Virus record (IMG/VR): IMGVR_UViG_3300044941_000040
Location: 1 to 25,889 of that record
Source: a virus
Length of the DNA: 25,889 nucleotides
Direction: 5' to 3' (one strand)
Made by a program: the position numbers and the translations under genes. How positions within the stretch are numbered: position 1 is the stretch's first letter; each line of letters opens with the position of its first letter. Shown here piece by piece: positions 2,998-22,043 of this stretch. A model generated the notes under the pieces. That model did no database searches and was not told where the DNA came from. It was given only the letters and a program-made list of their open reading frames with translations.

Positions 2998-3246
2998 CTA
3001 TCGCTTCCTCGCGAGAGGGACGACGTCGTCGGTGAAGGGTAGGTTCTCGACCACGGAGCTCTGGAGCTTCCGCAGGGGGTCTCCCTCCCCGCGATCCGTG
3101 ATGTCGACCGTGATGTTGTTGTCCTTGAGGAGCTTCACGGCGACGGCCATCTCGGCGGCCGTGGCTTCCCCGCTCTCGATCCGGGCGAGGAGAGCCTTGA
3201 CGGTCTTCTCGTGGAGCTCCTGGTGGAGTTTCCTGAGGGTGCCCAT
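2998..3246 (-). CDS. terS: Terminase small subunit (T7 gp18-like)
   Basis: Small DNA-maturation subunit that recognises phage DNA and works with the large terminase. The 82-aa product (T7 gp18: 89 aa) has an N-terminal helical region LHEKTVKALLARIESGEA, then TAAEMAVAVKLLKDNNIT, and an acidic tail ENLPFTDDVVPL, the usual pattern of the T7 maturase A family. The ATG at 3,246 overlaps the stop of the preceding gene (TGATG). Start codons further upstream would extend through that gene. The endolysin gene separates it from the large subunit gene, with a hairpin in the intervening gap. Confidence 0.85.
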   Translation of the reverse strand: MGTLRKLHQELHEKTVKALLARIESGEATAAEMAVAVKLLKDNNITVDITDRGEGDPLRKLQSSVVENLPFTDDVVPLARKR

Positions 3247-3443
3247 CAGTGGCGTCCGAGGGTGTGGTTGACGAGCGCCGTCAGGGCTGAGCCTAAGAGG
3301 CCAGCAAAGCCAGCGAAGGACCACGAGCGGAACTCCAAGGTGCGGAGCCGCGTCTCGTGGTCCTTCTTGTCCTCTCGGACCTCTGACAGGTGGGACTCGA
3401 TCCGGGTCAGCCGGTCGAGGACCTCACGTTGAAACGGGTCCAT
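3246..3443 (-). CDS. Holin-like / XhlA-like membrane protein
   Basis: A 65-aa protein with an N-terminal amphipathic coiled coil (about residues 3-38: LDRLTRIESHLSEV, DHETRLRTLEF) and a single C-terminal hydrophobic segment (about 43-60: FAGFAGLLGSALTALV), ending in a short basic tail. This resembles haemolysin XhlA-type and small phage holin-associated proteins. Placed beside the terminase and endolysin genes, where T7 has its holin (17.5), it is the best holin candidate in the window. The one-membrane-segment topology also allows a spanin-like or anti-holin role. Its start follows the upstream stop as TGAGATG, with a weak Shine-Dalgarno site. Confidence 0.6.
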   Translation of the reverse strand: MDPFQREVLDRLTRIESHLSEVREDKKDHETRLRTLEFRSWSFAGFAGLLGSALTALVNHTLGRH

Positions 3444-8057: not shown

Positions 8058-11000
8058 TCACTGTGAGAGGCGCCGAATGGCGTCCAGAAGGCCAGTCGGG
8101 CGGTTGTCCCGGGGAGTAGATGGCCCCCGGCCCTCCATTATGCTCTCGGTTAGGGCTCGGCGGGCCATCAACGCCTGCTCGACGGCGGGGAACTCCCTGA
8201 ATAGCCCCTCCAGGGCCGTCTGGCGGTATTCCTGGATGACGGCCTGGGTTTCCCGGAGGCGTGGCCCGTCGATATCGACCGTCCCATCGCCCAGGGCCTT
8301 GTATCGGTCGCTCGTGATGAGGTCCGTGAGGGCCTCCCGGAGGGTCTTACCGGCGATCCTCGTCTCTCCGATGAGCTCCTGGTAGCGCCCGTAGGCCGTC
8401 CCCCTGCCATCCGCCCTCGGGAACTCGCGAAGGTTGATCGCGTTCTCGAGGAGGTGAGGCGGCGGGAGGAAGGCGTTCTTGTGGATGTCCATCAGGCGGA
8501 GAAGCTCCTTCGTCACGACGTCTGCGCCGGGGATGCGGGACTCCCGCACCGGGCTGGCGACATGCCAGAACTCGGTCGGCAGGAAGGAAGCCCCGACACC
8601 GAAGGCCTGCGGCACCGGGACAGGCTCGCCGAGCACCGTGAACCTGGGGTCCAGGGTCTCGACAGCGGCCGTCCGGGCCTTCATGGCGTCGAGGATGGTG
8701 TTTGCCTCGCGCATGTAGGGGTTCCCGGTAAGGAACGTCTCCAGGTCCCGGTGGGCGCCGGGGACGAAACCGGCCGCCACGCCCTGCACGAACTGCTGGG
8801 CATCCCCCCGGTAGAGGGAGGCGACCATGTTCAGGAGGCCCTGGGCGTAGGACTTGTCCGCGATAGCCTTGGCGACCCCGAGGGCCACCATCAGGGCAAG
8901 CTGCCCGTAGCTCTCTTCCACCCGGAGGTCCCCCTCGGCCCGATCCATGAGCTCCTTCGCCGTGGCGAGGACCATGAAGGGATACGAGTATGGGTCGAGG
9001 CGGTCGATGCGGACGAACCGCTCGGTGCCATCAGGCTCCGTGAAGCGGACGCTGTAGCCGCCGACGCCAAAGCTGTTCATCGCCCGGTTCGTGTTTGGGT
9101 CCCTCGTGCCGCCCCCGGTGATATCGCCGGAGAGCACGAAGTAGGCAGCCGAGGACAGCAACGCGGTAGCCGTGGCGATCCTCGCTCCCGCTCGCCTGGC
9201 CGTGTCGCCGCCCGCCGCGAACTCCTGCCAGAGGCGCGCGCGCTCCTTAAAGAGGATGGGGCCGGAGATGGCGGACACAGGGTTGTAGACGGCGAACTCC
9301 GACAGGATGTTCGAGGGCGTGCGCACGAATGGGATGACGTAGCGGAGCGGGGGGAACTGGTTCTTCCCCCGATCCAGCCAGTTGCCAAAGCGGCCGACCC
9401 AGTCCGTCCCGAAGTCCTGCGTGAAGGTCGCCACGCGGGCGGCCTGGAGGCCCTCCTGGTCGAGTGCCCTCCCGTCCACGGGGTCGAAGGCAGCCGACAA
9501 GCGGCCCTGAACGTAGGTTCGGAGGTTCTGCCCGGAGAGTCCCATATCGACACCTTCGCGCGCGGCGTTGGCTTGCACCGTCGCACGCACCGTCAGGCGC
9601 TTGAAGAACTCGTCCTCGAAAGCCATGACCCGGCTGTTAAGCCTGACGAGCTCCCCGAGGCCATTCAGAAGGGCATCCCCAAGGAGCCCCTCGTCGGTGC
9701 CAAAGGTCGAAGCGCTTAAGGCCCGCACGTTGCGCTCGCCCTGAAAGGCGCGGCCGGGGTCTGTTACACCGTCAGCCCTGCGAAACGCCTCCGCGGCATG
9801 GACGACCGCATCCCCCAGGCCCATCATCATCCCGGAGTAGTAGTTCCAGCCCTCTCGGGCAGCCATGAGCGGGCGGCCGTCGAGAAGCCTGACGAAAACG
9901 CGCTCGGCCGGTTCTCCGATGCCCGTGCGGAAGGCGTTCGTGGTCACGTTCAGCACATGCGTCTGGAGTCCCGAGAGGATACCCGCCTGCCAAGTGTTCG
10001 ACGCGGCGTCCCATATGCTGTTCGGGTTCTCGAAGGTCTTCTGCACGGCCTTGCGGAGAGGGCCGGGACCCGACCGCTGCACCGTGCGGACGCGGTAGGC
10101 GAGCTCGACGATGAACCGCTCGCCGCCCTCGATTGAGGACTCCCACACACTGCCCTCGGTTGCCCGGAAGCCGATGCTCTCGGTGAACGTCCGGGTGTTG
10201 GTCGTCCGGGTCGACTGGCTGTCGGTGGTGCGGGTCCGCTGCGCCGGGTTGGTCTCCGGCATGCGCGCCGCGGCGCCCACGTCCGGAGCCCTTGAGGCGG
10301 CTCTGGAGGTGATCCCACGGAGGATCGAGAGGTTCTGACCCATCTGCGACCGCATCCCCAGGGTCAGGGGGTCAACGTTCGCCAGCACGTTGAGGACCGA
10401 GAGGAAGCGGCGGTAGGTCTCGTTCGGGTCGGCAGTGGAGCGCCCGGTTGAGATGTTGACGATCTCATCCGCGAGTTCCGTGGCGCGACGCTGGAGGTTG
10501 ACCGTAAGGGCGGTGAAGGCTGCGGCCCTACGGCCCACCTTCTCGGCACTCTGGAGCTCGGCTTCCATGGCATGGCGAAGCATCCGCGCCTGCCCTGCGT
10601 CGCCCGTGGCGATCAGCGCAGCAGCGTCGGCCCACTCCTCCGCCTGCTCCGTCAGGTCCCGGAGGTTGACCTTGGCCACCCGGGCGTTCCTGTAGCCAGC
10701 CTCGAAGGAGGTCTCGAGCGTCCGCACGAGGGCCAAAACGTCGTCCGGCGTCTCCATGCGGTCGAGGTTTCGCCAGATGATCCCGGCGTCCGGGTCCCTG
10801 CTGAGGGCCTCCGGATCGAACCGGGCGCGCTGCCACGCGGCGGCGATCCGCGCGGCCTCTTCGTCGGTGACCTCCACGGCGCTCCCGCGGATGCGCTGCG
10901 GGCCGAGGGGGGCGGTCACTTCGGGGGTGGGGGCAACGCCGGGCTCACCGGTCGTCGTCGTTGTCGACCGCGTGGTATCGGTCGTGGTCGTCCGGTCGGT

Positions 11001-17048: not shown

Positions 17049-17644
17049 CAGAGCCCCGTCTTCCGGTAAATCGCGCGGCTCATCGGATAGGTGTTTCCGA
17101 TGTTCAACTGTGCCGTCTCGCCCTCGGCCTCGTAGAGGATCGCCAAGGCCTGGAGCTCATCGCCCTCCTGGACGTTGCCCAGGTAGTTGTCCCCGAGGAC
17201 GCGCTGTTGGAAGCGGCGGACGGCCCTCAGGGTGATGTAGTTGCGGGCAGCCTCGGGAAGGCCGTCGAAGGGGATCGACCAGAGGATATCGAAGGTAATA
17301 GCCGGGTCGATCACGAAGGTCTTCGCCTCGCGGTCCCACAGCCTTCCGTCGCGCTGCGTGAAGTCCTTTGCCCAGCGGTCGGACGGGCGGATGCGGAGGA
17401 CGTTGGACGGGACTACCACGCCGCCCTCGGCGTCGCGGGGGAGGGCATACTCGTAGTCCTGGTTGAAGTGCCACGCCATCGTCAGGACCTCGCGCCACAC
17501 CTGACGGAGCACCTTGAGGGCGCGAGAGACGTCCAGCGACGGGGTGTCGAGGGAGTTCACCGGAGCGGTCCCGATGCCATCGAGCATCGCGTTCACCGCC
17601 TCAAGCTCAGTGGTGAGCCCGAGAGGAAGAGCGGGAGTGGTCAT
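17048..17644 (-). CDS. Tail tubular protein A (T7 gp11-like adaptor)
   Basis: Adaptor between the portal and the tail nozzle. The 198-aa product is almost the same length as T7 gp11 (196 aa). LEAVNAMLDGIGTAPVNSLD near residues 13-32, VLRQVWREVLTMAWHFNQDY near 49-68 and a helical C-terminal part with AVRRFQQRVLGDN are characteristic. The ATG at 17,644 follows GAGGA. It is the first gene after the capsid terminator, so its expression is expected to depend on read-through or coupled regulation, as in T7. Confidence 0.94.
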   Translation of the reverse strand: MTTPALPLGLTTELEAVNAMLDGIGTAPVNSLDTPSLDVSRALKVLRQVWREVLTMAWHFNQDYEYALPRDAEGGVVVPSNVLRIRPSDRWAKDFTQRDGRLWDREAKTFVIDPAITFDILWSIPFDGLPEAARNYITLRAVRRFQQRVLGDNYLGNVQEGDELQALAILYEAEGETAQLNIGNTYPMSRAIYRKTGL

Positions 17645-17656
17645 GGGGTCCTCACG

Positions 17657-17699
17657 AAAAAAGCCCCCTCCCCACCCAGGAAGGGCGAAGGAGGGGGCT
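17657..17699 (-). terminator. Intrinsic terminator after capsid gene (T-phi-like)
   Basis: Read on the minus strand: a perfect 10-bp stem AGCCCCCTCC (17,699-17,690) and GGAGGGGGCT (17,671-17,662), an 18-base intervening sequence, and a run of six T at 17,662-17,657. It lies about 20 bases after the capsid stop codon and ends 13 bases before the tail tubular A start. T7 has its T-phi terminator at exactly this place, where partial termination gives high capsid and lower tail-gene expression. Confidence 0.93.
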
Positions 17700-17719
17700 C
17701 AGGAGGGGTCACTCAGCGA

Positions 17720-18658
17720 TCATGGAATCGCGAGCTCGACGGCGCACGCGGGACGGAGGATGCCGTGACCCACGCTCACCTTCGACACGATCAGCGTGCC
17801 GAGGCGGCGCTCGTCGTAGGACATGCGGGTGTTGATGTCCTGGAGTTTCAGGGTTCCGGCAGCGGCCGGGTGCCACACGACGCCCACGGTCTTCGAGAAG
17901 TTGCCGCGATAGGCGGTCGGGAGGGAAGAGTTGGCGCTGTCGTCGGCGGACGGGACGTGGTTCGACTTCACGATCTCGATGTTGGCCACCATGCGGACCT
18001 GCGCCTTAGCACGGTCGCCGTTGCCATCCGTCAGGTCCTTGTCCACGAGCTCCGCAATGCGGGCGATCAGGTGATACTGGGCCGGGCGGAGCGCCACGGC
18101 GCGGCCATCGGAGTCCACGTCCTTCTCGTCGAGGACCTGGGCGGCGTTCCAGATGTTGTCCACCAGGGTCGCACCCACAGTGTTCATGTTGGCGACCGCG
18201 AGGGCGGCACCGCCGGGCTCACCGGTCAGGTTGCTCGCGCCGCGGGCAGCCAGGACCAGCACACGCGCCACGTTACGGTCGAGCGCGTAGGCAAGCGCCT
18301 TACCGGTCTCCGCGGAGTAGATGCCCCGCAGATCGTAGTGGTTCATGAGCTCGTCGATCTCGGCCGTGAAGATGTGCGACACGAGGAAGCCGTCGACGGT
18401 GATGTTGCGCTCGTTCTGGCCGATGCCCGTGCCCAGGAGCTCATTGCCCGGGGTGTGGTAGGCAGCCGAGGCGCGGCCGACGATGGGGAACTGCGCCGTC
18501 TTGCCGTTCGAGATGGAGCGAACGAGGTGGCGCTCCATGAAGACCGTCCGAGTCTCGAACGCGGTCATCACCTCGCCCGAGAACTGCTTGAGGAAGAGCG
18601 CGTCATCGGCGCCGGACTGGTTGGCTTGGCCGAGACGGGCTGGAGTAGCGTTTGCCAT
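17720..18658 (-). CDS. Major capsid protein (T7 gp10A-like)
   Basis: Main shell subunit, 312 aa (T7 gp10A: 345 aa). The N-terminus LFLKQFSGEVMTAFETRTVF followed by RSISNGKTAQFPIVGRASA and the ELLGTGIGQNERNITVDGF region are typical of HK97-fold T7-like capsid proteins; DELMNHYDLRGIYSAETGKA then ALDRNVARVL are also typical. The ATG at 18,658 is supported by GGAG six bases upstream. The 14 codons of open frame further upstream lie in the structured leader. I see no extended frameshift product of the 10B kind, though I could not rule one out. It is flanked by a 248-base structured leader and an intrinsic terminator. Confidence 0.95.
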   Translation of the reverse strand: MANATPARLGQANQSGADDALFLKQFSGEVMTAFETRTVFMERHLVRSISNGKTAQFPIVGRASAAYHTPGNELLGTGIGQNERNITVDGFLVSHIFTAEIDELMNHYDLRGIYSAETGKALAYALDRNVARVLVLAARGASNLTGEPGGAALAVANMNTVGATLVDNIWNAAQVLDEKDVDSDGRAVALRPAQYHLIARIAELVDKDLTDGNGDRAKAQVRMVANIEIVKSNHVPSADDSANSSLPTAYRGNFSKTVGVVWHPAAAGTLKLQDINTRMSYDERRLGTLIVSKVSVGHGILRPACAVELAIP

Positions 18659-18906
18659 TGAAGGCTCCGAAGCAGGGATGGAGGGGGGAAACCCCCACAC
18701 CGCCGCTCCTGCGGCCCGACCTGAGGTGTCGCCGTGCGCTCCCCCTCGGGGGAGGCCGTGCGGCTCGCGGCAGTCTGCGAGGACGGGGAGTGGAGAACGC
18801 CGCCTAGAAAGGCAGCACGTTCAGCCGCTTCGGATGGAGTAGACTACGCGATTGCCCCGGGGGCTTGCCTTGCGGCAGAGGCCTTCCCGGGGTGAACGCA
18901 GCAGGG
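18659..18906 (-). promoter_or_regulatory. Structured 5' leader of capsid gene
   Basis: This 248-base gap is the longest gene-free stretch inside the structural block and holds four possible hairpins on the minus strand. Arms at 18,892-18,886 and 18,861-18,855 (CCCCGGG with CCCGGGG) enclose a nested GCCT/AGGC stem. Arms at 18,816-18,810 and 18,805-18,799 close the tetraloop TTCT. CTCCCC-CGAG-GGGGAG lies at 18,754-18,739, and GGGGG-TTT-CCCCC at 18,696-18,684. None has a U tract. I cannot see a copy of the promoter-like element here. The region may raise capsid mRNA stability or contain an unrecognised promoter. Confidence 0.55.
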
Positions 18907-18945
18907 TCAGCCCTTGCGGCCGCCCTTCTTCTTGCCGTAGCCCAT
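18907..18945 (-). CDS. 12-aa basic mini-protein (MGYGKKKGGRKG)
   Basis: A 13-codon frame (ATG to TGA) whose ATG overlaps the stop of the lipoprotein gene as TGATG, the same coupling used between many genes in this window. The peptide MGYGKKKGGRKG has five basic residues and four glycines (after the initiating MG). Similar very short Gly/Lys-rich ORFs occur near head genes of other podoviruses, to my recollection. It could bind nucleic acid or the capsid interior, or serve only to keep ribosomes moving. It might also not be translated; the junction and composition are the only evidence. Confidence 0.45.
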   Translation of the reverse strand: MGYGKKKGGRKG

Positions 18946-19085
18946 CAGCCGTTGTCCCGGGCGTCCGGAGGCGTGCAGGCCGGGGTCTCGAACGGGGGGT
19001 CCACACAGGGGTCGCCCCCGGGGCCGGAGGCGCAGGCGACCGCGAAAACGGCCACGAACGCCAGAGCGATCAGACGAGAGAGCAT
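18945..19085 (-). CDS. Small lipoprotein, 46 aa
   Basis: A 46-aa frame starting with ATG at 19,085, eight bases after AAGGA, itself just past the TAA of the preceding gene. It begins MLSRLIALAFVAVFAVAC: a positively charged residue, a hydrophobic core and a lipobox-like AVAC, predicting signal peptidase II cleavage before Cys18. The mature part (about 29 residues) is Pro/Gly/Asp-rich with Cys27 and Cys37. Short Pro-rich lipoproteins in phages include outer-membrane spanins (Rz1) and superinfection-exclusion lipoproteins. No inner-membrane spanin partner is visible, and the position next to the capsid gene is unusual for lysis, so function is open. Confidence 0.68.
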   Translation of the reverse strand: MLSRLIALAFVAVFAVACASGPGGDPCVDPPFETPACTPPDARDNG

Positions 19086-19096
19086 GAGGAGGTTCC

Positions 19097-19423
19097 TTAG
19101 CTGGTTGAGCCGAAGCCCGGCGTCACGAACACATCGCCGGTGCTCGCGGCGGCGGCCACGACGGCGACATGGGTGGTTCCGGAGGGGGCGGTGATAGTCT
19201 CGGTGCGGCCCGCGGCGATCCGAATGCCGTTACCAGCGGCGGCAACCGCCGAGGCGACGACTCCGGAGGTGCCGAAGGCGACGTTGACAATCTGGTTCGT
19301 CGAGTTGAACACACGCACGGAGGCGGCTCCGGAGACCAGCCCCGGGGTCGCCTGAGCGGTCGAGGAGGTGCCCGGAGCGGCGAACCTGACGGTGTTACCG
19401 GCGGGAGCAAAAGGTCGGTCCAT
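19097..19423 (-). CDS. Small beta-rich head-region protein
   Basis: A 108-aa Ala/Val/Thr-rich protein between the scaffold and capsid genes. The pattern SVRVFNSTNQIVNVAFGTSG, then GIRIAAGRTETITAPSGTTH, VAVVAAAAS and VFVTPGFG looks like a small beta-sandwich found in several phages (RVxNxG, VAFG, and TLxxGxxxI-type strands). A decoration or cementing role for the capsid is plausible from its location but not shown. The ATG at 19,423 follows GAGGG at seven bases. No membrane segment or signal peptide. Confidence 0.7.
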   Translation of the reverse strand: MDRPFAPAGNTVRFAAPGTSSTAQATPGLVSGAASVRVFNSTNQIVNVAFGTSGVVASAVAAAGNGIRIAAGRTETITAPSGTTHVAVVAAAASTGDVFVTPGFGSTS

Positions 19424-19426
19424 GGG

Positions 19427-20248
19427 TCATCCCTCGAAGTAGCGAAGCTTGCGCTCGACCTCGGCCTGGAAGGCCCGGTCGTTCTTGTAGCGGGGGTCCC
19501 GCATGTCGCGCTTCACCTCAGCCCAGGACTGGTAGGTGGCCTGCCCTGGACGGACGCTGTCGAGTTCCAGGAGGGACGGCTCCTTGCCGTTCGCCTCCAT
19601 GTAGCGAGCGAAGAGACCGCGGGCCGCCAGCTTGAGGGCCTCGAAGTCGGACCCTGAGGCGATGGCGTTGAAGGCGTCGATCTCGCTCTTCGGGAGGTTG
19701 TCCTTCGCCCACTCGCCCATCGCCCGGTAGTTCTCCTCCCCACCCACGGCCTGGAAGACCGACATGCGGGCGAGGGTGACAACGGCCTGTTGTCCGGCGA
19801 TGTAGGCGTCGACGACTTCTCGGCCGATGCCCTGTTTGGCGAGCGCTTCGTAGGTGGACTCCTTGAGGCCCCCCTCGGTCTCGAACTCGGTGACCAGGGC
19901 TTGGTAGTCGAACCCCGCAGATTCCACCGTCTCCTTCGCGGTGGCCTCGGTGGCCGTGTCGGCCTTGGGAGCGGGGGGCTGCGAAGCGCCGGGGGGCTCG
20001 CTCGCGGGAGAGCGACTACCAAGCTTCTTCTCGAGGGCGGCGTAGGCCTTCTCCAGGTCCTCGACGCTCCCGAACTTCCCGGCCAGCTTTGGCTTCTCCG
20101 CCGGAGCCTCGGCAGGAGCGGCCTGGGGGTCCTCGGTAGGGGGCGCCTTGCCCTCCGCCTTCGCCACCAAGGCCGCTACCTTCGCCGGGTCTTCCTTGAC
20201 GCCAGCCGTATCCGGCGGGCCGAAGGGGGTGTTGATCTCGGCTACCAT
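19427..20248 (-). CDS. Scaffolding / capsid assembly protein (T7 gp9-like)
   Basis: Internal scaffold that directs prohead assembly around the portal and is lost at maturation. The 273-aa, acidic protein has a disordered Pro/Ala/Glu-rich N-terminus (about 1-50), the recognisable motif LAGKFGSVEDLEKAYAALEK at about 55-74, a second low-complexity linker (about 78-105) and a helical C-terminal half ending VERKLRYFEG. T7 gp9 is 307 aa. The start overlaps the stop of the upstream gene as TGATG. Position between portal and capsid matches T7 gene 9. Confidence 0.92.
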   Translation of the reverse strand: MVAEINTPFGPPDTAGVKEDPAKVAALVAKAEGKAPPTEDPQAAPAEAPAEKPKLAGKFGSVEDLEKAYAALEKKLGSRSPASEPPGASQPPAPKADTATEATAKETVESAGFDYQALVTEFETEGGLKESTYEALAKQGIGREVVDAYIAGQQAVVTLARMSVFQAVGGEENYRAMGEWAKDNLPKSEIDAFNAIASGSDFEALKLAARGLFARYMEANGKEPSLLELDSVRPGQATYQSWAEVKRDMRDPRYKNDRAFQAEVERKLRYFEG

Positions 20249-20469
20249 CAGAACTGCTTTAGCACGGCGCCGTTGGGGAGCACGGTCATCGTCACCGCGT
20301 GCGCGTGCGGGTCGGCCTGTTGTGCGCGCGGATCGGGGAGGCTCTCCTCGTTCGCCGGGCGGCTGCCCGCGAGGGGCTCAAAGCTGCTCTCGACCTTGCC
20401 CTCATCCGGGTGCTTCGCCGGGACCGCATCGACCGCGGCGGCCTCCGGCTTGAACGAACGCTTGCTCAC
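20248..20469 (-). CDS. Small hydrophilic protein between portal and scaffold
   Basis: A 73-aa protein of unknown function starting with GTG that overlaps the portal stop (GTGA), with GGAG eight bases upstream. It is Pro/Ala/Glu-rich and probably disordered for the first 50 residues, then has a beta-like end HAHAVTMTVLPNGAVLKQF. Small genes in this position are common in T7-like phages. Its overlaps with the portal gene (4 bases) and scaffold gene (TGATG) support it being a real translated unit. Confidence 0.72.
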   Translation of the reverse strand: MSKRSFKPEAAAVDAVPAKHPDEGKVESSFEPLAGSRPANEESLPDPRAQQADPHAHAVTMTVLPNGAVLKQF

Positions 20470-22043
20470 TGTAGCATCTCCATGGGGGCGCCGCCTGCCT
20501 GAGTGGCGAGCGCCTCAACGATTTTGGGGGCGGACTCGTTGATGAGCCCGTTGGCCTGGGCCTGCTGCTGCTCCTGGGCGATCTCTTCGTCCGTCCGTAG
20601 GAGGCCTGGGGTGGACACGCCACGGGCAGCCGCGAGCCGCCGGAGGACTTCCTTAGCGTTCACACGCTGGAGAACATCGGGACCGAGCACGGTTGCGGCG
20701 TCGCTGAGGAGTTGCAGGAGGTTGGAATAGTCACTGCCACGCCCGATGGCGGCCACGCCTGCGATGATCGTCGGGCGCACCGGGCGACCTTCGAGAGAGG
20801 GGATCGCGCGCTTCTTCGTCAGGCGGTCGAGGATGATCCCGGCCAGAGGAATCAGAAGCTCCTGCGTCAGGAGCGAGTAGACGCCGCCGAGGGTTGCGTC
20901 GAGGTCCTGCGCCATCCGCCGGATTTCCTCGGCGGTCACGCGCTCGGCCTGCCTCTGGATCGAGGCCGTCATCAGGAAAGCGAGCTCAAGGGCCTTCTGG
21001 ATTTCCTGCTCGGCCTGGAAGGCGATGCGGAGGTCTGCGAACTTCTCTAGCTGTAGGACCGACACGTCGTCCTTGTTGCCCACGCCGATGCCCAGGTTCT
21101 TCATGTCCGCGAGCATCTTCGGCCGGGTGGTCCCGTTCGGGCGCACCAGGAAGATGACCTTCGCGGCCGCTGCCGATGCCTCGACGATGGCCTGCCGGAG
21201 GCCCTCCAGGGAGCGTAGGTCCCCGAGATACTCTTCGACATAGGACCGGCCAAAGCTCTCGCCGGAGACCCGAACCATGCGCAGAGGGAGCCACGGCAGC
21301 TTGGCCGCTGGGTAGAACCCATCGCTCTTCGGGACGAGGCTGCCGTTCTGGATTTCCTGCCGAACCGAGAAGCGGTCGTTCGGCCCGCGCCGGACCCAGG
21401 TGTAGACCGGGACGCTCTTCTGTGGGTTCTCCTCGTAGCCCTGCTTCTCTTCCTTCGTGAGAAGCTCCCGAACCTCGGCCGGGAGGGAAGCGTAGGAGAA
21501 CTCCTCCTTCACGACAATCTCGAGGAGATTGCCGGAGGGGTCGCGGAGGACGACATACTGGTCGAGCCTGAACAGGCGCAGCGGCTTGTTCATCGGCCAG
21601 AACAGCAGGGTGTTGCCCGAGACGATCAGTTGCTTGAGGGCCTCGAAGAGGGTCACCCCCAGGTGGTTCGTCTGAACCATCTTGTGGGCTTCCATCTCGA
21701 TCATCCCGAGCGCCTGCTCCACCGCGCCGCGAGGCTCGTCTTCTGCCTGCTCCAACTCCAGGAGCGCCTGGCCTTCCACCTGGAGGCGGAAGAAGGGCAT
21801 CTCCGGCGGGAGGAGAGCGAGAAGGAGCTTGCTCGCAAGGGAGTTGACGCCACGGGCGCCGACCGACTGCCACGTCTCACGGAGGCTCGAGCCCTGGGTG
21901 TGCCCCGTGGGGGGCATCAGGCTCGGGATCGTGAGCTTGGCGCATTCTCGGGCGCGGGCCAGGACGGCCTCTCGCTCGTTCGACAGGGCGGCGTAGCGCC
22001 CCGCCGCGGTCTTCGTGGGGAGCTCCTGAGGTGCCTTCGCCAT
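20466..22043 (-). CDS. Portal / head-tail connector protein (T7 gp8-like)
   Basis: Dodecameric ring at the packaging vertex through which DNA enters and leaves. The 525-aa product is close to T7 gp8 (536 aa). Typical segments are RYAALSNEREAVLARARECA then TIPSLMPP near the N-terminus, GSSLRETWQSVGARGVNSLA followed by KLLLALLPPEMPFF, and in the C-terminal half AFLMTASIQRQAERVTAEEI followed by RRMAQDLDATLGGVYSLL. The C-terminus is Gln/Ala-rich. The start codon is one base after the stop of the upstream gene (TGA C ATG). Confidence 0.96.
   Translation of the reverse strand: MAKAPQELPTKTAAGRYAALSNEREAVLARARECAKLTIPSLMPPTGHTQGSSLRETWQSVGARGVNSLASKLLLALLPPEMPFFRLQVEGQALLELEQAEDEPRGAVEQALGMIEMEAHKMVQTNHLGVTLFEALKQLIVSGNTLLFWPMNKPLRLFRLDQYVVLRDPSGNLLEIVVKEEFSYASLPAEVRELLTKEEKQGYEENPQKSVPVYTWVRRGPNDRFSVRQEIQNGSLVPKSDGFYPAAKLPWLPLRMVRVSGESFGRSYVEEYLGDLRSLEGLRQAIVEASAAAAKVIFLVRPNGTTRPKMLADMKNLGIGVGNKDDVSVLQLEKFADLRIAFQAEQEIQKALELAFLMTASIQRQAERVTAEEIRRMAQDLDATLGGVYSLLTQELLIPLAGIILDRLTKKRAIPSLEGRPVRPTIIAGVAAIGRGSDYSNLLQLLSDAATVLGPDVLQRVNAKEVLRRLAAARGVSTPGLLRTDEEIAQEQQQAQANGLINESAPKIVEALATQAGGAPMEMLQ

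Follow-up and report, generated by a model that had tools for sequence, protein, structure and literature searches.

The window analysed here, a 25,889-base virus record taken at its full length, has a T7-like gene order on the minus strand: family A DNA polymerase, 5'-3' exonuclease, nucleotide kinase, head-tail connector (PF12236) and scaffold (PF05396), followed by capsid (PF21703), tail tubular proteins, internal virion protein, peptidase M15 and terminase. The slot between scaffold and capsid holds a 108-aa orphan gene, then a 46-aa lipoprotein frame and then a 12-aa frame (Table 1). Relatives of the 108-aa protein were sought and none was found, nor was a close DNA relative of the window. 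The window carries no tRNA and its positions 17500-20500 gave no Rfam match; a tRNA-Asn is present in the scaffold-capsid slot of two relatives. From the end of the 12-aa frame to the capsid ATG there are 248 nt. The gap preceding the capsid gene (18660-18906) folds strongly, at a z of -2.43 relative to shuffles for a 271-nt stretch, and contains a hairpin that is capped by GCAA and lacks a T run.

Table 1. Features of the window from the head-tail connector to the capsid gene.
Feature	Position	Strand	Remarks
Head-tail connector (portal)	20466..22043	-	PF12236
Capsid assembly (scaffolding) protein, T7-type	19427..20248	-	PF05396
108-aa orphan gene	19097..19423	-	Directly upstream of lipoprotein; without significant family or relative
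Shine-Dalgarno AAGGA of lipoprotein	19094..19098	-	8 nt before ATG; overlaps stop of 108-aa gene
46-aa lipoprotein frame	18945..19085	-	Signal peptide, lipobox AVA-C, 29-residue Pro/Cys-rich mature part
TGATG, lipoprotein stop and mini-gene start	18943..18947	-	One-base overlap
Mini-gene MGYGKKKGGRKG	18907..18945	-	12 aa plus stop; M-x-YGKKKGG family; identical peptide in L051 and L053
G+C-rich hairpin	18855..18892	-	No T run; 14 nt past mini-gene stop
Major capsid protein, T7 gp10A-like	17720..18658	-	PF21703

A previous sequence-only reading had proposed a tiny coupled gene pair at this site, and this was borne out: both frames were recovered, each very short (46 and 12 codons), together with the TGATG overlap, the AAGGA site and the lipobox. 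Of all minus-strand frames of 25-250 codons in the window, the first frame, MLSRLIALAFVAVFAVACASGPGGDPCVDPPFETPACTPPDARDNG, alone combines a Shine-Dalgarno-like site with a lipobox pattern; the single plus-strand frame that does so, at 10567, lies antisense to a 1272-aa gene. When its codon usage was scored against the phage's own genes, none of 270 wrong-frame 46-codon segments matched the score, and 7 of 135 real 46-codon segments scored no higher than it did. The frame is probably coding. By pattern and hydropathy its product is a short lipoprotein with signal peptide and lipobox, as in an Rz1-type o-spanin, and the mature part is short and Pro-rich (7 of 29 residues). Family-profile scans including Pfam, PHROGs and NCBIfam, and tblastn in named phages, detected no relatives of this lipoprotein, the tblastn result being weak evidence of absence in view of the low-complexity filter of BLAST.

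The A that ends the lipoprotein stop TGA (18947-18945) is also the first base of the second frame's ATG. This 12-mer has no Shine-Dalgarno of its own, and its translation would therefore depend on termination-reinitiation. Its codon-usage score was reached by 0 of 270 wrong-frame segments, a rough comparison because only 13 codons are involved. The exact peptide of the window is also encoded in L051 and L053 (L numbers are our handles for contigs), which are related contigs of another phage lineage and carry it before their terminase gene; these copies differ from that of the window by synonymous codons and do have a Shine-Dalgarno.

The start of this peptide recurs in unrelated phages. A degenerate back-translated pattern for its first eight residues, MGYGKKKG, retrieved 40 IMG/VR contigs, compared with 2 for the permuted control MGKGKYKG and 5 for the reversed control MGKKKGYG, both of the same composition. 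All 40 MGYGKKKG frames stop at 12-25 residues, with tails (positions 9-12) consisting mostly of Lys, Gly and Arg, whereas none of the 7 control matches is a stand-alone frame, all 7 lying inside longer frames. The same pattern occurred at 3 places in 257 Gb of prokaryote genomes, none of them with a basic tail, and a stricter pattern gave 0 matches there. Leaving residue 2 free (M-x-YGKKKGG) yielded 62 contigs, including those encoding MKYGKKKGGKKK, MAYGKKKGGKKPPKKY and MSYGKKKGGRKK; a 58-aa frame in L126, one of these contigs, exceeds the 45-aa limit and was left out of the catalogue described below. We define here an M-x-YGKKKGG family by a start M-x-Y-G-K-K-K followed by G-G or near, a stand-alone frame of at most 45 codons, a Shine-Dalgarno or a start overlapping the upstream stop, and a place in the head and packaging module. 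The mini-gene of the window has the start motif, 12 codons followed by TGA, the TGATG overlap and the scaffold-capsid position.

An additional search gave 43 contigs, 20 of them new, from which 4 mini-genes encoding MGYGKKKPGKGGKGK were kept and 16 contigs were left out. The latter comprise 11 with MGYGKKK at the N-terminus of a longer protein (62-140 aa), two in which the motif lies inside an acidic protein (L069, L074) and three chance-like cases (L067, L070, L079). The resulting catalogue, variants and the four contigs just mentioned included, holds 73 mini-gene loci counting the window, which are not 73 independent events because many contigs are interrelated. Its commonest form is MGYGKKKGGKKK, at 8 loci, and a single copy per contig was found in all 21 contigs searched whole (out of 72 catalogue contigs). 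Purifying selection acts on those residues of the longer members that lie outside the search pattern: over the last eight residues of these members, a C-terminal motif, pN/pS was 0.22 (17 loci, 10 distinct sequences). Third-position GC of the mini-genes correlates weakly with that of the flanks (Spearman 0.30, p 0.010, n 73, with related sequences retained). PHROGs scans of two longer members, an NCBIfam scan of one and a Protein Data Bank sequence search with one 23-residue member gave no match, and our literature search found no paper mentioning MGYGKKK or YGKKKGG. Likewise, tblastn of the 23- and 41-residue mini-peptides found nothing in named phages, which is weak evidence of absence given the same low-complexity filter.

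Among named records searched whole, 1 of 21 matched, the isolate Roseobacter phage CRP-902. Its member, MMYGKKKPSQPVKKKVKKKKAKPKKKAY, has 28 aa and an AAAGGAG site and lies in an unannotated gap between the connector and major head genes, on the minus strand at 38142-38228 of record OQ401624.1. A more distant form, the Lys/Gly-rich 20-aa MAKGKKKGMNTQTGKYCGGK, is encoded by phage C72C1 (L127:3634-3696) with a strong Shine-Dalgarno, AGGAGG. This 20-aa frame lies inside an annotated 103-aa frame, at its end, and the longer frame may be over-long.

The catalogued mini-genes start in a recurrent manner. Start codon and upstream stop codon overlap, as TAATG or TGATG, at 36 of the 73 loci including the window, that is, at 35 of the 72 others; a Shine-Dalgarno-like site is present at 65/73, and a single locus has neither. 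The upstream partner belongs to a 56-60-residue family, here called HYF-RDG, at 17 of the 73 loci, with overlap at 14; other partners are a DUF6321 protein, Cys-rich small proteins and portal genes, and in the window the lipoprotein. Since the partner differs among loci, it is the habit of coupling that is conserved and not the partner. The pair described by the sequence-only reading was not seen again elsewhere, where the mini-gene follows a different small gene. The HYF-RDG family (GVKHYFRDGT...HKMPDGxLHSG...LSxTAKKKARK) directly adjoins the mini-gene upstream in L026, L031, L037, L038, L040, L042, L045, L049, L052, L054, L055, L060, L062, L064, L103, L104 and L106. Its member in CRP-902 is gp69 (L090:3001-3171), and the member scanned against Pfam, PHROG and NCBIfam gave no match.

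Most loci lie in head modules. Family clustering showed that 62/73 loci have a gene for terminase, portal, connector, scaffold, capsid or another virion component within 3 kb, and adding the window and L108 separately brings this to 64/73. The 9 loci with no head gene within 3 kb are L027, L029, L100, L116 and five copies of a 41-aa MMYGKKKGGKGC peptide. L027 is at a contig end and has the same neighbours as in L044, and the five 41-aa copies sit near a tail-fibre-like gene and may represent a different family. The lineages carrying mini-genes differ in their neighbour profiles (portal phrog_1216, connector phrog_332, portal phrog_145, portal phrog_12082, several terminases). Among contigs that share scaffold/capsid families F3 and F4, the mini-gene precedes the portal gene in some, and in others it immediately precedes that of the scaffold.

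With modest confidence, we favour the view that the 12-codon frame is a real gene and belongs to an ultrashort family (M-x-Y-G-K-K-K-G-G, mostly 12-25 residues, Gly/Lys-rich) that is mobile in head and packaging modules, is read by reinitiation and/or from its own Shine-Dalgarno, and encodes a cationic helper, the lipoprotein being a separate matter. The family would be a movable element of the head and packaging modules of tailed phages, translated by reinitiation from the stop of the upstream gene (in the window, the lipoprotein), from its own Shine-Dalgarno, or by both. In the phage of the window reinitiation would be the route. The strongly cationic peptide may then bind DNA or an acidic protein of the head (scaffold, portal or capsid) while the head is assembled or during packaging, a role suggested by its charge and location. 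The idea of a DNA- or capsid-binding peptide, put forward earlier, keeps its plausibility insofar as a recurring basic gene of head and packaging modules fits it; no structure, profile or paper that we found supports such a role. Much more tentatively, the peptide could be a widely shared, mobile working part of tailed-phage heads: a cationic product of reinitiation beside genes for portal, scaffold or capsid, which enters the procapsid as a component or is packaged together with the DNA.

Against the favoured reading stands the distribution of the mini-gene among T7-like counterparts of the window. We compared 103 other T7-like capsid loci, 93 of them with at least 600 nt upstream, as a sample in which the relatives are the best 80 of at least 586: a mini-gene in the 2.5 kb before the capsid was found in 0 of the 103, leaving the window as the only carrier among 104, and 44 of the IMG/VR contigs behind these loci, searched whole, gave no match. 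A search for the pair next to the capsid genes of other podoviruses, suggested by the sequence-only reading as a check, thus met with no second case in this sample. The lack of a Shine-Dalgarno in the window's copy also counts against this reading.

The same sample (best 80 of at least 586 relatives) bears on the lipoprotein. Its presence beside the capsid had been called unexpected, a view that no longer holds, since 4 of the 103 other T7-like loci have a small lipoprotein in the same scaffold-capsid slot: LUZ100, an identical copy in L166, L194 and Pasto. The LUZ100 and L194 lipoproteins match phrog_1275, 'Rz-like spanin' (E 1.6e-12 and 2.1e-11, respectively), and that of Pasto is annotated as o-spanin and matches phrog_456 weakly (E 0.0064). 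These neighbours lend weight to the main alternative, a displaced lysis gene, in which the lipoprotein would be an Rz1-type o-spanin bridging to an i-spanin from another locus, with an incidental 12-mer alongside. The mature part of lambda Rz1 is short and Pro-rich, as is that of the window's lipoprotein. However, the latter matched no spanin profile (Pfam, PHROGs) and did not align with the Pasto o-spanin, and no i-spanin-like frame (Shine-Dalgarno-like site plus N-terminal membrane segment) was found in the 25.9 kb fragment of this incomplete genome; moreover, the recurrence of the 12-mer argues against its being incidental. As a whole this alternative is possible, if doubtful. Of the earlier suggestion of a displaced o-spanin there remains the slot, with its spanin-like occupants elsewhere, and the lipoprotein is at most an o-spanin candidate, this being its most likely single role at a probability of about a third. 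We propose that its gene is cargo of the scaffold-capsid slot, separate from the mini-gene.

A role of the lipoprotein as a superinfection-exclusion factor, blocking the receptor after infection, is less likely than that of o-spanin and in our estimate improbable. Small phage lipoproteins of this kind exist, such as T5 Llp and phi80 Cor. Ltp of phage TP-J34 is reported as a further example (PMC3952083). The NCBIfam scan gave a weak, sub-threshold match to TrbK-type entry exclusion (E 0.11), but the superinfection-exclusion families of PHROGs were unmatched, the sole PHROG match (E 0.22) being to a family of unknown function. The exclusion role suggested by the sequence-only reading is therefore unsupported by any match in PHROGs or NCBIfam, none being significant, and a position among late structural genes would be late for a blocker.

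We likewise give little credence to the 12-mer being a chance or low-complexity frame, its likeness to other viral mini-frames reflecting Lys/Gly convergence. Convergence could in principle produce a Lys/Gly 12-mer; the frame has just 12 low-complexity residues and no Shine-Dalgarno, and none of the other T7-like loci examined (a sample with the best 80 of at least 586 relatives) carried it. Such an origin fits poorly with 40 contigs against 2 and 5 for the scrambled peptides, with the identical 12-mer in another lineage, with the location in head modules, with purifying selection in longer members, and with the stop-start overlap both here and in 35 of the 72 other loci. Least probable is that the RNA acts and not the peptide, as a coupling or ribosome-pausing element (Gly-Lys-Lys-Lys) tuning the next head gene: the Lys codons AAG AAA AAA are shared by 47 of the 73 loci and a strong fold lies past the mini-gene of the window, but these codons come in seven forms, all three are AAG in the GC-rich copies (window, L053), which keep the peptide, and downstream genes and their distances vary widely among the loci.

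In the favoured reading, the family finds its place among very small phage proteins. Close to the portal gene, T7 encodes gp7.3 and gp6.7, small basic virion proteins of about 90-100 residues; by description, they resemble the mini-peptide in being small, basic and beside the portal gene, and are far longer. Fremin et al. (2022), cited in a review of phage small proteins, reportedly worked on phage small proteins or microproteins. Phage small proteins, as that review presents them, are encoded by very short frames and are mostly of unknown function (PMC11323111). The mini-gene resembles those of such microproteins in being a very short phage-encoded frame and differs from them generally in its 12 residues, its fixed M-x-YGKKKGG start, its occurrence in head modules of unrelated phages and its frequent coupling. 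As the longer members scanned matched no PHROG or NCBIfam entry, we file the family as so far uncatalogued within the broad kind of phage microproteins. The lipoprotein, for its part, is like the Rz1-type o-spanins of phrog_1275 and phrog_456 in being small and in sharing the slot of those in LUZ100, Pasto and L194, and unlike them in its missing profile match, Pasto alignment and i-spanin partner within the fragment. If translated, the mini-genes would rank with the shortest conserved protein-coding genes known from viruses, and head modules would carry unannotated parts below the usual length thresholds; annotation has missed these genes despite their place in the best-studied module of tailed phages.

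Some further observations were made. MGYGKKK begins proteins of 62-140 residues in L068, L071-L073, L075, L076, L080 and L082-L085, and 10 of these 11 contigs carry, immediately upstream, a gene of the head maturation protease family (F6); the MGYGKKK N-terminus may therefore lead a scaffold-core-like protein. In the window, positions 1-480 contain short repeated units readable in several frames. Between its tail genes and terminase, a 65-aa protein with a C-terminal hydrophobic segment (3246-3443) matches phrog_5225, of unknown function (E 1.6e-6), and more weakly a holin family (E 0.065).
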